Assembly (NCBI GenBank): GCA_028872875.1
Contig: JAGWOC010000030.1
Location: 1-35,148 of the forward strand
Source of the DNA: Chloroflexota bacterium
GTDB taxonomy: Bacteria; Chloroflexota; Dehalococcoidia; DSTF01; JACRBR01
DNA length: 35,148 nucleotides
Direction: 5' to 3'
In this document: positions 23,328 to 25,834 of the stretch, in pieces
Position numbering within the stretch: position 1 is the stretch's first letter
Layout of the letters: every line of letters starts with the position of its first letter
The notes under the pieces: model-generated
The model's database searches: none
Told to the model about the DNA's origin: nothing
Seen by the model: the letters and a program-made list of their open reading frames with translations, nothing else
Made by a program: the position numbers and the translations under genes

Positions 23328-23413
23328 TCCATAGTTCAGTTCCTGGTTCCCACGGTCCATTGCCCGCTTCATGAACCGTCGCGCGCGGCGCCGCCCGCGG
23401 ATCACATTGATGA

Positions 23414-23442
23414 TCGACGCAGGGCGATCGGCGTGCTACTAT
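23414..23442 (+). promoter_or_regulatory. Promoter of the exported protein gene
   Basis: TCGACG (23414-23419), 17-nt spacer, and TGcTACTAT with the hexamer at 23437-23442. The start of transcription near 23449 leaves about 27 nt to the GTG at 23476. Confidence 0.45.
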
Positions 23443-23475
23443 CGGCCGCGGCGGGGCACTGGAATCGGGGAAGCG

Positions 23476-24021
23476 GTGAAGTGGATCGCATTGGCGTGCG
23501 CCGTCGCGTGCGCGGTCGCGTACGCGTTTTCGTCCGGGACGGCCTTCGCGCAGCAGCCGCGGGACCCGTTGATCGTGCCGCAGGAGGGCGGCAACGGGTC
23601 GCTCTTCCAGATCGTCGGACAGTACGGCTGGACGCCTGGCGAGACGGTGACCATCCGCCTCGGCTGGACCGCGGTGGACCCGCTGCACTACGCGGGGCCG
23701 CTCTACCACGAGCGGACCGCAACGGTGCTGCGCGACGGCACGTGGAGCTTCCCGATCGCCGTCAACGACGCGCTCTTCCCGTTCCCGCTGGGCTCCGAGC
23801 CGAAGTTCATCGTCGTCGAGGCCACCAGCGCCTCGAAGACCGCCATCAACGCGTTCATCTACGCGCCGGGCGGACGGCTGCCGGCGGGGCCCGACGCGAT
23901 CGCGCTGCTCGGCTTCGGGCCGCCGCGCGCGAGCTCGCTGGCGCTGCTGGTCGCCGCGCTGTTCCTCGGGGCGACAGGCGGGCTGATCGTCGTCAGCGGC
24001 GCCGGGCAGCGGACGGCATAG
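23476..24021 (+). CDS. Exported protein with C-terminal membrane segment, unknown function
   Basis: 181 aa from the GTG at 23476, preceded by GGGGAAG. A Sec signal peptide ('WIALACAVACAVAYAFSSGTAFAQQ') is predicted to be cut after AFA (about residue 24). The mature part (about 25-150) is beta-rich with a repeated 'GWTPGETVTIRLGW' and 'LRDGTWSFPIAVND' flavour, resembling an Ig-like domain of the kind that begins 'pGe.v.v.'. A C-terminal hydrophobic segment (about 155-176) would anchor it outside the cell. No enzyme motif is seen and no family named with confidence. A frame open upstream to 23371 was rejected because the signal peptide fixes the start. Confidence 0.75.
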   Translation: MKWIALACAVACAVAYAFSSGTAFAQQPRDPLIVPQEGGNGSLFQIVGQYGWTPGETVTIRLGWTAVDPLHYAGPLYHERTATVLRDGTWSFPIAVNDALFPFPLGSEPKFIVVEATSASKTAINAFIYAPGGRLPAGPDAIALLGFGPPRASSLALLVAALFLGATGGLIVVSGAGQRTA

Positions 24022-24058: not shown

Positions 24059-24088
24059 TTGACGCCCTCGCCGCCCGCCTGCTATCCT
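24059..24088 (+). promoter_or_regulatory. Strong sigma-70 promoter of the small CxxC unit
   Basis: TTGACG (24059-24064), an 18-nt spacer, and TGcTATCCT with the hexamer at 24083-24088. It is the best complete promoter in the window. Predicted +1 is near 24095. Confidence 0.7.
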
Positions 24089-24114
24089 CCCTCGCAGGAA
24101 AGGAGGTGATGCGG

Positions 24115-24183
24115 ATGGACGATCGTCGTTGCGAGGCCTGCAAGCCGAGCACACTCCGCAGCACCTCGGGGGCTGACTCCTAG
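24115..24183 (+). CDS. 22-residue CxxC microprotein (or leader peptide)
   Basis: A 22-codon ORF, far too short for normal gene calling, between the exported protein and the gltD-like gene. AAAGGAGGTGAT (24099-24110) is a complete match to the anti-Shine-Dalgarno, and its GGAGG ends 8 nt before the ATG at 24115, the ideal distance. The peptide begins MDDRRC and has Cys at 6 and 9 (C-E-A-C), then Lys-Pro and a Ser/Thr-rich tail. It has its own near-consensus promoter and is followed by a perfect terminator stem. There is no gene on the + strand after it within 10 kb that it could control as an attenuator leader, so it looks free-standing. Alternatives are an sRNA whose ribosome site is incidental, or the relic of a longer gene. 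I know no family for it. Confidence 0.5.
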   Translation: MDDRRCEACKPSTLRSTSGADS

Positions 24184-24185
24184 CA

Positions 24186-24222
24186 GCTCTCCGGGGGCGG
24201 AGCCGATCCGGGGCCTCCCCGG
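24186..24222 (+). other. Structured 3-prime part of the small transcript
   Basis: Two hairpins follow the microprotein stop: GCTCtCCG with CGGAGC (24186-24203) and CCGGGG with CCCCGG around CCT (24208-24222). With the terminator they make the transcript after the ORF almost wholly structured, which also fits a small RNA. Confidence 0.45.
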
Positions 24223-24261
24223 CGCGGCTGCCGGGCGGCAGGCCTGGCAACAGTCATGATC

Positions 24262-24289
24262 GTGGCCCGGCCAGCAATGGCCGGGCCAC
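24262..24289 (+). terminator. Intrinsic terminator-like perfect 12-bp hairpin
   Basis: GTGGCCCGGCCA pairs perfectly with TGGCCGGGCCAC around a GCAA (GNRA) tetraloop. The tail is ATCGTCCCCCC, so the T-run is weak. It closes the small CxxC unit and may also act on transcripts from the convergent gltD-like gene. Confidence 0.65.
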
Positions 24290-24352: not shown

Positions 24353-24381
24353 TTCTTGGTTCTTGGGTTCTGAGTTCTACG
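24353..24381. repeat. Short 7-nt-phase repeat (TTCTTGG)
   Basis: TTCTTGG, TTCTTGGG, TTCTGAG, TTCTACG in tandem, overlapping the last codons of the gltD-like gene. A similar degenerate run, with GTTCAGT, TCCTGGT and TCCCACG, lies at about 23328-23365 after the PIG-L gene. Confidence 0.45.
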
Positions 24382-25834
24382 CTCGCCCTCGCTTCGGTGG
24401 CAGCGACGACAGGTAGTCGTGGATCGCCTGCGCCGCCCGCCGCCCGTCGGCGAGCGCGGTTACCACCAGGTCCGCGCCGTTGACGTTATCGCCGCCCGCG
24501 AACACGCCTGGCCGCGTTGTCATGTACGTCTCCGGGTGCACCTCGACCAGGTTCCAGCGGTCCGTCGAGATGCCCGGCGCCGCGTCCTTGATCAGCGGGT
24601 CCGCGTTGTAGCCGATGGCGATCGCCACCGTGTCCGCCGCCAGCACGAACTCGGAGTGCGGCACCGGGATCGGCCGCCGCCGCCCCGACTCGTCCGGCTC
24701 CCCCAGCTCCATCCGCTGGCACTCGACCCCCGTCACGTGTCCGTCCTCGCCGAGGAAGCGCAACGGGATCGTCAGGAACTCGAAGTGGACGCCTTCCTCG
24801 CGCGCGTGCTGCCGCTCCTCGCGCCGGCCGGGCATCTCCGCCTCCGTGCGCCGGTACACGCACGTCACGTGCTCCGCGCCCAGCCGTACCGCCGTCCGCA
24901 CGCAGTCCATCGACGTGTCGCCGCCGCCGATCACCACGACGTCGCGCCCGACCGCCAGCGGCTCGCGCATCTGCTCCGGCAGTTGCTCCGGCCGCAGGTT
25001 GCCGCGCACCAGGAACTCCGTCGCCGGGTAGATGCCGGCGTTCTCCTCCTCGCCCGGGATCGCGAGCGTGCCGCCGACCCCCGCCCCCGTGCCGACGAAC
25101 ACCGCGTCGAACCCCTGCGCGAACAGCTCGTCGATGGTGATGTCCTTCCCCACCCACGTGTTGCCGATGAAGCGCACCCCGAGCCGCTCCAGGTACTTCA
25201 GCTTGTCCGTCAGTACCTGCTTGCTCAGCTTGAAGTTGGGGATCCCGTACAGCAGGATGCCGCCCGGCTCCGGCCAGGCGTCGTACAGCGTGCACGCGTG
25301 CCCCTGCCTCGCCAGCTCCTCCGCCACCGCCAGCCCCGCCGGCCCGGCGCCGACCACCGCCACGGCAAAGCCGCTCGCCTCCGGCAGCACCGGCAGGGGG
25401 ATGCCGCCGTGCGCCCGCTGGTAGTCCGCGACGAACGCCTCCAGCTTGCCGATCGACACGGGCGGCTCCTGGTGCATGTCGGGCCGGATCGCGAACGCCA
25501 CGACGCACTCGCCCTCGCACAGGCGCTCCTGCGGGCACAGACGACCGCACAGTTCCGGCAGGTTGCTCGTCTCGCGGAACGTCTCCGCCGCCCCCAACGC
25601 ATCCCCGACTTCGAGCAGCTTGAAGGCGCCGGGAATATCGTTGTGCACCGGGCAGGCCTGCTGGCAGGGCGCCGTCGGGCACTGGATGCAGCGCATCGCC
25701 TCGACCTGCGCGCTCTCCAGGTTGAAGCCGAGGAACACCTCGTCCCAGTTCTTGCGGCGCTCCCGCGGCTCCTGCTTGTGGATCGGCACCCGCGAGATCG
25801 CGAGGCGCCGCTGGACTTCGATGTCCCTGGGCAT
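24377..25834 (-). CDS. gltD: GltD-like NAD(P)-dependent flavoprotein oxidoreductase
   Basis: 485 aa, the length of the glutamate synthase small subunit family. The N-terminal Fer4_20-type domain has two Cys clusters, C49/C52/C57/C61 and C96/C100/C106/C110, for two [4Fe-4S] centres. The FAD-binding site is 'VAVVGAGPAGLAVAEELARQGHACTLYD' (about 155-185), the NAD(P) site 'VVVIGGGDTSMDCVRTAVRLG' (about 292-312), and the FAD-closing motif 'GVFAGGDNVNGADLVVTALADGRRAA' ends it. It feeds electrons from NAD(P)H to a partner. The large subunit GltB is not in the window, so the partner could be GltB elsewhere or another enzyme; stand-alone members also act as ferredoxin/NAD(P)H oxidoreductases. The ATG at 25834 follows a plausible promoter 50 nt upstream. 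Confidence 0.88.
   Translation of the reverse strand: MPRDIEVQRRLAISRVPIHKQEPRERRKNWDEVFLGFNLESAQVEAMRCIQCPTAPCQQACPVHNDIPGAFKLLEVGDALGAAETFRETSNLPELCGRLCPQERLCEGECVVAFAIRPDMHQEPPVSIGKLEAFVADYQRAHGGIPLPVLPEASGFAVAVVGAGPAGLAVAEELARQGHACTLYDAWPEPGGILLYGIPNFKLSKQVLTDKLKYLERLGVRFIGNTWVGKDITIDELFAQGFDAVFVGTGAGVGGTLAIPGEEENAGIYPATEFLVRGNLRPEQLPEQMREPLAVGRDVVVIGGGDTSMDCVRTAVRLGAEHVTCVYRRTEAEMPGRREERQHAREEGVHFEFLTIPLRFLGEDGHVTGVECQRMELGEPDESGRRRPIPVPHSEFVLAADTVAIAIGYNADPLIKDAAPGISTDRWNLVEVHPETYMTTRPGVFAGGDNVNGADLVVTALADGRRAAQAIHDYLSSLPPKRGRA

Follow-up and report, generated by a model that had tools for sequence, protein, structure and literature searches.

What does a 22-codon open reading frame (ORF) produce when it has its own promoter, ribosome-binding site, hairpins and terminator, and when no gene on its strand follows it? 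The locus that raises this question lies on the + strand of a 35,148-nt stretch of DNA (hereafter, the window) from a 3.4-Mb MAG of Dehalococcoidia (Chloroflexota). The original prediction had listed a promoter, a Shine-Dalgarno (SD) sequence, the ORF, hairpins and a terminator stem, and every one of them is present. The promoter (24059..24088) consists of a -35 box TTGACG (24059-24064), an 18-nt spacer and an extended -10 element TGcTATCCT, with the -10 box at 24083-24088. It is followed, about 5 nt from where transcription is predicted to begin, by the SD AAAGGAGGTGAT (24099..24110), which we take to be complementary to the 3' tail of 16S rRNA, using the generally known 16S 3' end and not that of this organism. 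The mini-ORF (24115..24183, ATG at 24115) encodes MDDRRCEACKPSTLRSTSGADS followed by a stop codon, and the element is closed by a terminator-like hairpin (24262..24289) with a perfect 12-bp stem and a GCAA loop, identified by its sequence, by folding and by the T-rich tails of its relatives. In the window this stem lacks a good T run (ATCGTCCCCC), which is why a terminator scan missed it, while the same place is T-rich in relatives. Only two promoter-like sites occur in 12 kb, one of them that of the element, against 0.4 in shuffled sequences, and the element strand folds at -124.5 kcal/mol versus -99.8 +/- 4.8 for shuffled sequences (z -5.15). The claim that no + strand gene follows is borne out as well: the next gene, at 24377-25834, is on the - strand, and is read as GltD-like by its domains (Fer4_20 and Pyr_redox_2). 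Upstream of the element, the + strand ORF at 23371-24021 (216 aa) has no Pfam match.

Conservation in close relatives had been proposed as a check, with loss of both the ORF and the hairpins counting against the element. All the same-family genomes match the window element (best E-values from 1.7e-12 to 2.9e-125), so that it is not a product of chance, and the full element is kept in every one of them and in most of the order. An exact 18-mer from the element (AAGGAGGTGATGNGNATG) occurs in 83 of 393 genomes of the class, as a single occurrence in all but one genome, while the same 18-mer read backwards has 0 occurrences among these 393 genomes. About 11 of the 83 matches are unrelated genes, and 11 loci (L051, L068-L075, L099 and L100) were dropped as chance 18-mer matches, as matches at ordinary gene starts or as contig-end cuts. 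After reading, 69 true Dehalococcoidia members beyond the window (70 including it) were retained, belonging to 11 families. A search for an exact 21-base core in 84,980 genomes returned 40 stretches, mostly labelled Dehalococcoidia, Chloroflexi or Chloroflexota, including one from Tepidiforma flava (NZ_CP115149); the seven matches outside Chloroflexota that were read (L145, L146, L152, L168 and L170, and the viral L171 and L172) turned out to be ordinary ORF starts.

Since the middle of the element is too variable for a covariance model of the whole, we searched with sequence-only models of its head in genomes that are mostly MAGs, and the model E-values are rough. The first model (R1, covering the first 91 positions) matched 118 of 400 Chloroflexota genomes, compared with 4 of 118 and 6 of 118 genomes in two other phyla, where one of each was a seed genome picked for carrying the 21-mer. 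About 45 new R1 matches were read, and all but four have the same plan; these four (L212, L234, L246 and L247) were discarded. The second model (R2), built from 35 families, matched 219 of the 400 Chloroflexota genomes, representing 135 of 224 genera and almost always with one copy per genome, and only 2 of 119 Bacillota genomes, one of which was a seed genome, or 1 of 118 among those not preselected. Twenty held-out R2 matches were read, most of them from families or genera outside the model, and in all 20 an SD precedes the start codon of a 13-26-codon ORF, and the downstream structure matches as well. Several large genomes of family f115 have two model matches each. The window has no match in Rfam 15 at the gathering score, E-value scans of the element and 15 member loci gave weak partial matches only, and no description of such a family was found in the literature searched, the coverage of which is incomplete. 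Judged by sequence, the window element thus appears to belong to an undescribed family of free-standing small RNA genes, with about one copy per genome across much of Chloroflexota.

The members share one plan, namely, a promoter, a perfect SD at the extreme 5' end, an ORF of 13-28 codons and a terminator-like hairpin that closes the gene, with roughly 110-260 nt of RNA from SD to terminator; the terminator positions were assigned automatically in some members, and a few are uncertain. A TTGAC sequence is found no more than 70 nt upstream in 67 of the 113 members, compared with 3 in control windows, and the SD core is almost invariant throughout the phylum. Between the end of the -10 box and the SD there are 11 nt (interquartile range 11-11), and the predicted transcript therefore has the SD at its extreme 5' terminus.

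The mini-ORFs begin with ATG, GTG or TTG and end with TAG, TAA or TGA, and within families their lengths differ by whole codons while the position of the stop is kept, with the sole exception of L066. ORF length alone is no evidence of translation, since random ORFs are about equally long; the evidence comes from an in-frame codon signature. Weighted by family over 35 families, AGT in codons 2-11 occurs at 35.5 : 0 : 0.2 in the ORF frame, the +1 frame and the +2 frame, and NGT codons near the start are distributed 43:0:4 by frame in the held-out set. The share of AGT among serine codons is 62% in codons 2-9, 0.7% in the rest of the ORF, 4.6% in neighbouring genes and 1% in nine genes of the window, and CGT makes up 82% of the arginine codons early in the ORF versus 10% in neighbours. 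We therefore take the mini-ORF to be translated, on the strength of this in-frame signature of rare NGT codons (AGT and CGT) in the DNA.

Translation does not by itself identify the product. One explanation is that the locus is a small-protein gene, whose 13-28-residue peptide, rich in Ser, Asp, Cys and Arg, is the product, the RNA structure merely regulating its synthesis. The codon signature and the strong SD would both be expected of such a gene, and nearly every residue close to the start is small or polar; however, residues past the first few differ between families and are unconserved, the length range is wide, the choice of AGT and CGT codons is more constrained than the choice of residues, and the peptides have no Pfam or NCBIfam match. 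The synonymous bias that was to be looked for in the codons of the mini-ORF is also lacking within families, where changes are about as frequent at codon position 1 as at positions 2 and 3 and no purifying selection on amino acids is seen. We therefore consider this explanation unlikely, and the product is probably something other than the peptide. The more specific proposal of a zinc- or redox-active CxxC microprotein was rejected, since the cysteines are unconserved, CxxC being found in only 10 of 114 members (of which 8 belong to the family of the window), and the amino acids vary as freely as synonymous sites. In the window's family the CxxC codons TGC GAG GCC TGC belong to GUUGCGAGGCCUGC, which pairs at long range with GCAGGCCUGGCAAC as the 5' strand of a helix, illustrating that a conserved CxxC can come from RNA base pairing instead of protein function. 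The other product put forward in the original prediction, a dual-function or regulatory small RNA, is in agreement with our results, which describe an RNA that is autonomous and structured, occurs phylum-wide and carries a translated mini-ORF.

The structure of this RNA was analysed with RNAalifold on three separate alignments (A1, A2 and A3), which gave the same long-range helix between strand A, the SD/start segment (GAGGTGATGCGGA, 24103..24115 in the window), and strand B, an internal anti-SD within the ORF (TCCGCAGCACCTC, 24155..24167); 12 of the 13 positions of the window's strand B pair with strand A. A second helix joins the ORF to segment C just 5' of the terminator, and is represented in the window by P1, whose 5' strand GTTGCGAGGCCTGC (24128..24141) is also the CxxC-coding segment and whose 3' strand, element C (GCAGGCCTGGCAAC, 24238..24251), lies immediately 5' of the terminator. 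The first helix is further supported by duplex energies and pair counts, and P1 by folding, duplex energies against swapped partners and pair counts. In 35 families we compared the duplex energies of a family's own strands with those of partners swapped between families and of shuffled strands, and obtained -23.0, -19.4 and -16.9, respectively, for A:B, and -38.2, -26.2 and -25.2 for B:C, while A:C, the negative control, gave -14.9, -15.1 and -14.8. For P1 in Dehalococcoidia, the own pairs (-27.7) are stronger than swaps within a family (-22.7), swaps between families (-18.8) and shuffled strands (-15.7). A:B cannot be distinguished from within-family swaps in this class because A is nearly invariant, and in several families (f115 and part of f132) it is no better than shuffled. 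The pair counts of the helices exceed those of slid and shuffled controls, and double-sided covariation inside families is modest. The clearest cases are L296, L304, L305 and L243, in which C repeats A as GGTGATGCCC or a near copy, so that L296, for instance, has the layout GGTGATGCCC ... GGGCATCAC ... GGTGATGCCC.

This arrangement suggests that A and C may compete for B. In folding models of the window, the SD is predicted to be unpaired at about 15% in nascent RNA of 80-100 nt and at about 58% once P1 can form. Among the 35 families, SD access is higher with the real C than with a shuffled one in 23 and lower in 5, and adding C leads to predicted SD exposure in 19 and lowers SD access in 9, by thermodynamic folding that leaves out kinetics and ribosomes. 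The SD is thus predicted by these models to be masked in the nascent RNA and exposed once C has been made. In the family of the window A:B crosses P1, so that the RNA may form a pseudoknot instead of a strict switch.

The genes next to the element bear on where such a switch would act. Among Dehalococcoidia outside the window's family, birA (Pfam BPL_LplA_LipB) lies closely downstream in 61 of 62 loci, which raises the possibility of a cis attenuator or leader of a downstream gene, ancestrally birA, in which translation of the mini-ORF would decide whether polymerase passes the terminator. The 1-2-3 pairing layout and the rare codons, which resemble those of classical leader-peptide attenuators, would fit such a role. 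On the other hand, birA is downstream in none of the 8 loci of the window's family, where both helices are kept, and all 8 genomes carry birA elsewhere without the element there. The terminator arms, moreover, have no antiterminator partner, their own, swapped and shuffled energies being -15.4, -15.8 and -14.7. Across the phylum, the next gene may be birA, smpB, recN-like, greA-like or thioesterase-like, or there may be none on the strand of the element, and because its neighbours vary the element is not the leader of one operon. In one genome (G015) the element is kept at L061 where the adjacent birA is lost, and an HTH-bearing birA is found on another contig (L188, G015:C219); it appears that this HTH birA replaced the short one while the element stayed at its old place. 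We therefore regard the birA-attenuator explanation of the family as quite improbable; cis attenuation is unlikely as a general function and could apply where birA follows. The genome CP070630 (bin98) has two copies of the element, L096 (G162:C1:223558) and L097 (G162:C1:1524554), each followed by a birA-like gene.

The reading that we prefer, and to which we would give an even chance, is that the element works autonomously and in trans, as a riboregulator gated by translation. The sequences point to a family, a translated ORF, the complementarities and autonomy, and the folding models to exposure of the SD by C; we infer that the RNA would be expressed, would switch in a ribosome-dependent manner and would act in trans. 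According to this model, transcription would start about 5 nt ahead of the perfect SD, and in the emerging RNA strand A would have two possible partners, a 30S subunit and B, so that the SD would be masked unless a ribosome had bound first. The rare NGT codons at the beginning of the ORF would hold the first ribosome near the start. Segment C, made last before the terminator, would then compete for B and expose the SD, and ribosomes would translate the 13-28 codons. The final conformation of the RNA would be set by whether initiation came in time, that is, by ribosome loading, and the RNA would thereby report translation-initiation capacity and act in trans as RNA. More tentatively, and with somewhat less than an even chance in our judgment, the element might be a core RNA of the phylum whose role is to sense ribosome availability through the competition between ribosome binding and self-masking at its 5'-terminal SD; it would keep a record of initiation capacity and have other RNAs or the translation machinery as its targets. 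It might instead be a simple trap for ribosomes or 30S subunits, in which the 5'-terminal perfect SD and the slow start codons titrate ribosomes or stabilise the RNA with no specific target in trans. The constant 11-nt spacing from the -10 box to a perfect SD is what such a trap would have, as are codons ending in U that neighbouring genes seldom use, but it would leave the conserved B and C unexplained, and the element is single copy, so we consider a trap very improbable.

Several known systems share parts of this anatomy. Leader-peptide transcription attenuators of the trp, his and ilv type combine a short ORF containing rare codons with alternative pairings (1:2 or 2:3) and an intrinsic terminator, all of which have counterparts here; the element, in contrast, has neither a constant downstream gene or pathway nor an antiterminator, its terminator looks unconditional, and its SD is itself a strand of the switch. 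Dual-function small RNAs, such as SgrS/SgrT, RNAIII/hld and SR1/SR1P, are autonomous structured RNAs carrying a small ORF, and the element resembles them, by sequence and prediction, in having its own promoter and terminator, but differs in that its peptide is unconserved, the start of its ORF lies within the SD switch, and it is present phylum-wide in single copy. In the preQ1-II and SAM-II translational riboswitches, which sequester the SD of a metabolic gene, an anti-SD masks the SD, as is predicted for the element, possibly via a pseudoknot, whereas the SD of the element is 5'-terminal and serves a mini-ORF instead of a metabolic gene, and the element has no Rfam match. Finally, the leader peptide peTrpL shows that trans action is open to a leader-type mini-gene once it has left cis control (mBio 2020, PMC7298713); there a conserved peptide acts, while the peptide of the Chloroflexota element is unconserved. 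A small RNA gene with a mini-ORF, a fixed ribosome-binding site at its 5' end and a predicted built-in SD switch, present across much of a large phylum, appears to be undescribed. If our model is true, the element would serve as a general translation-capacity sensor made of RNA alone, and the reading in terms of ribosome availability would imply a class of regulators with no described counterpart. The model is testable in cultivated Chloroflexota, and the locus offers concrete strands for mutation, namely, A, B, C and P1.

Two known RNAs were considered as identities for the element and rejected. A 6S RNA (RF00013) was found with the Rfam model in none of 20 related genomes, compared with 5 of 14 control genomes, and ARAGORN detects no tmRNA at the element. 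A separate tmRNA gene (ssrA) adjoins the element in one same-family genome (L059, 4142-4493), while family f118 has the element followed by the ribosome rescue genes smpB and then ssrA (L207, 358-729).
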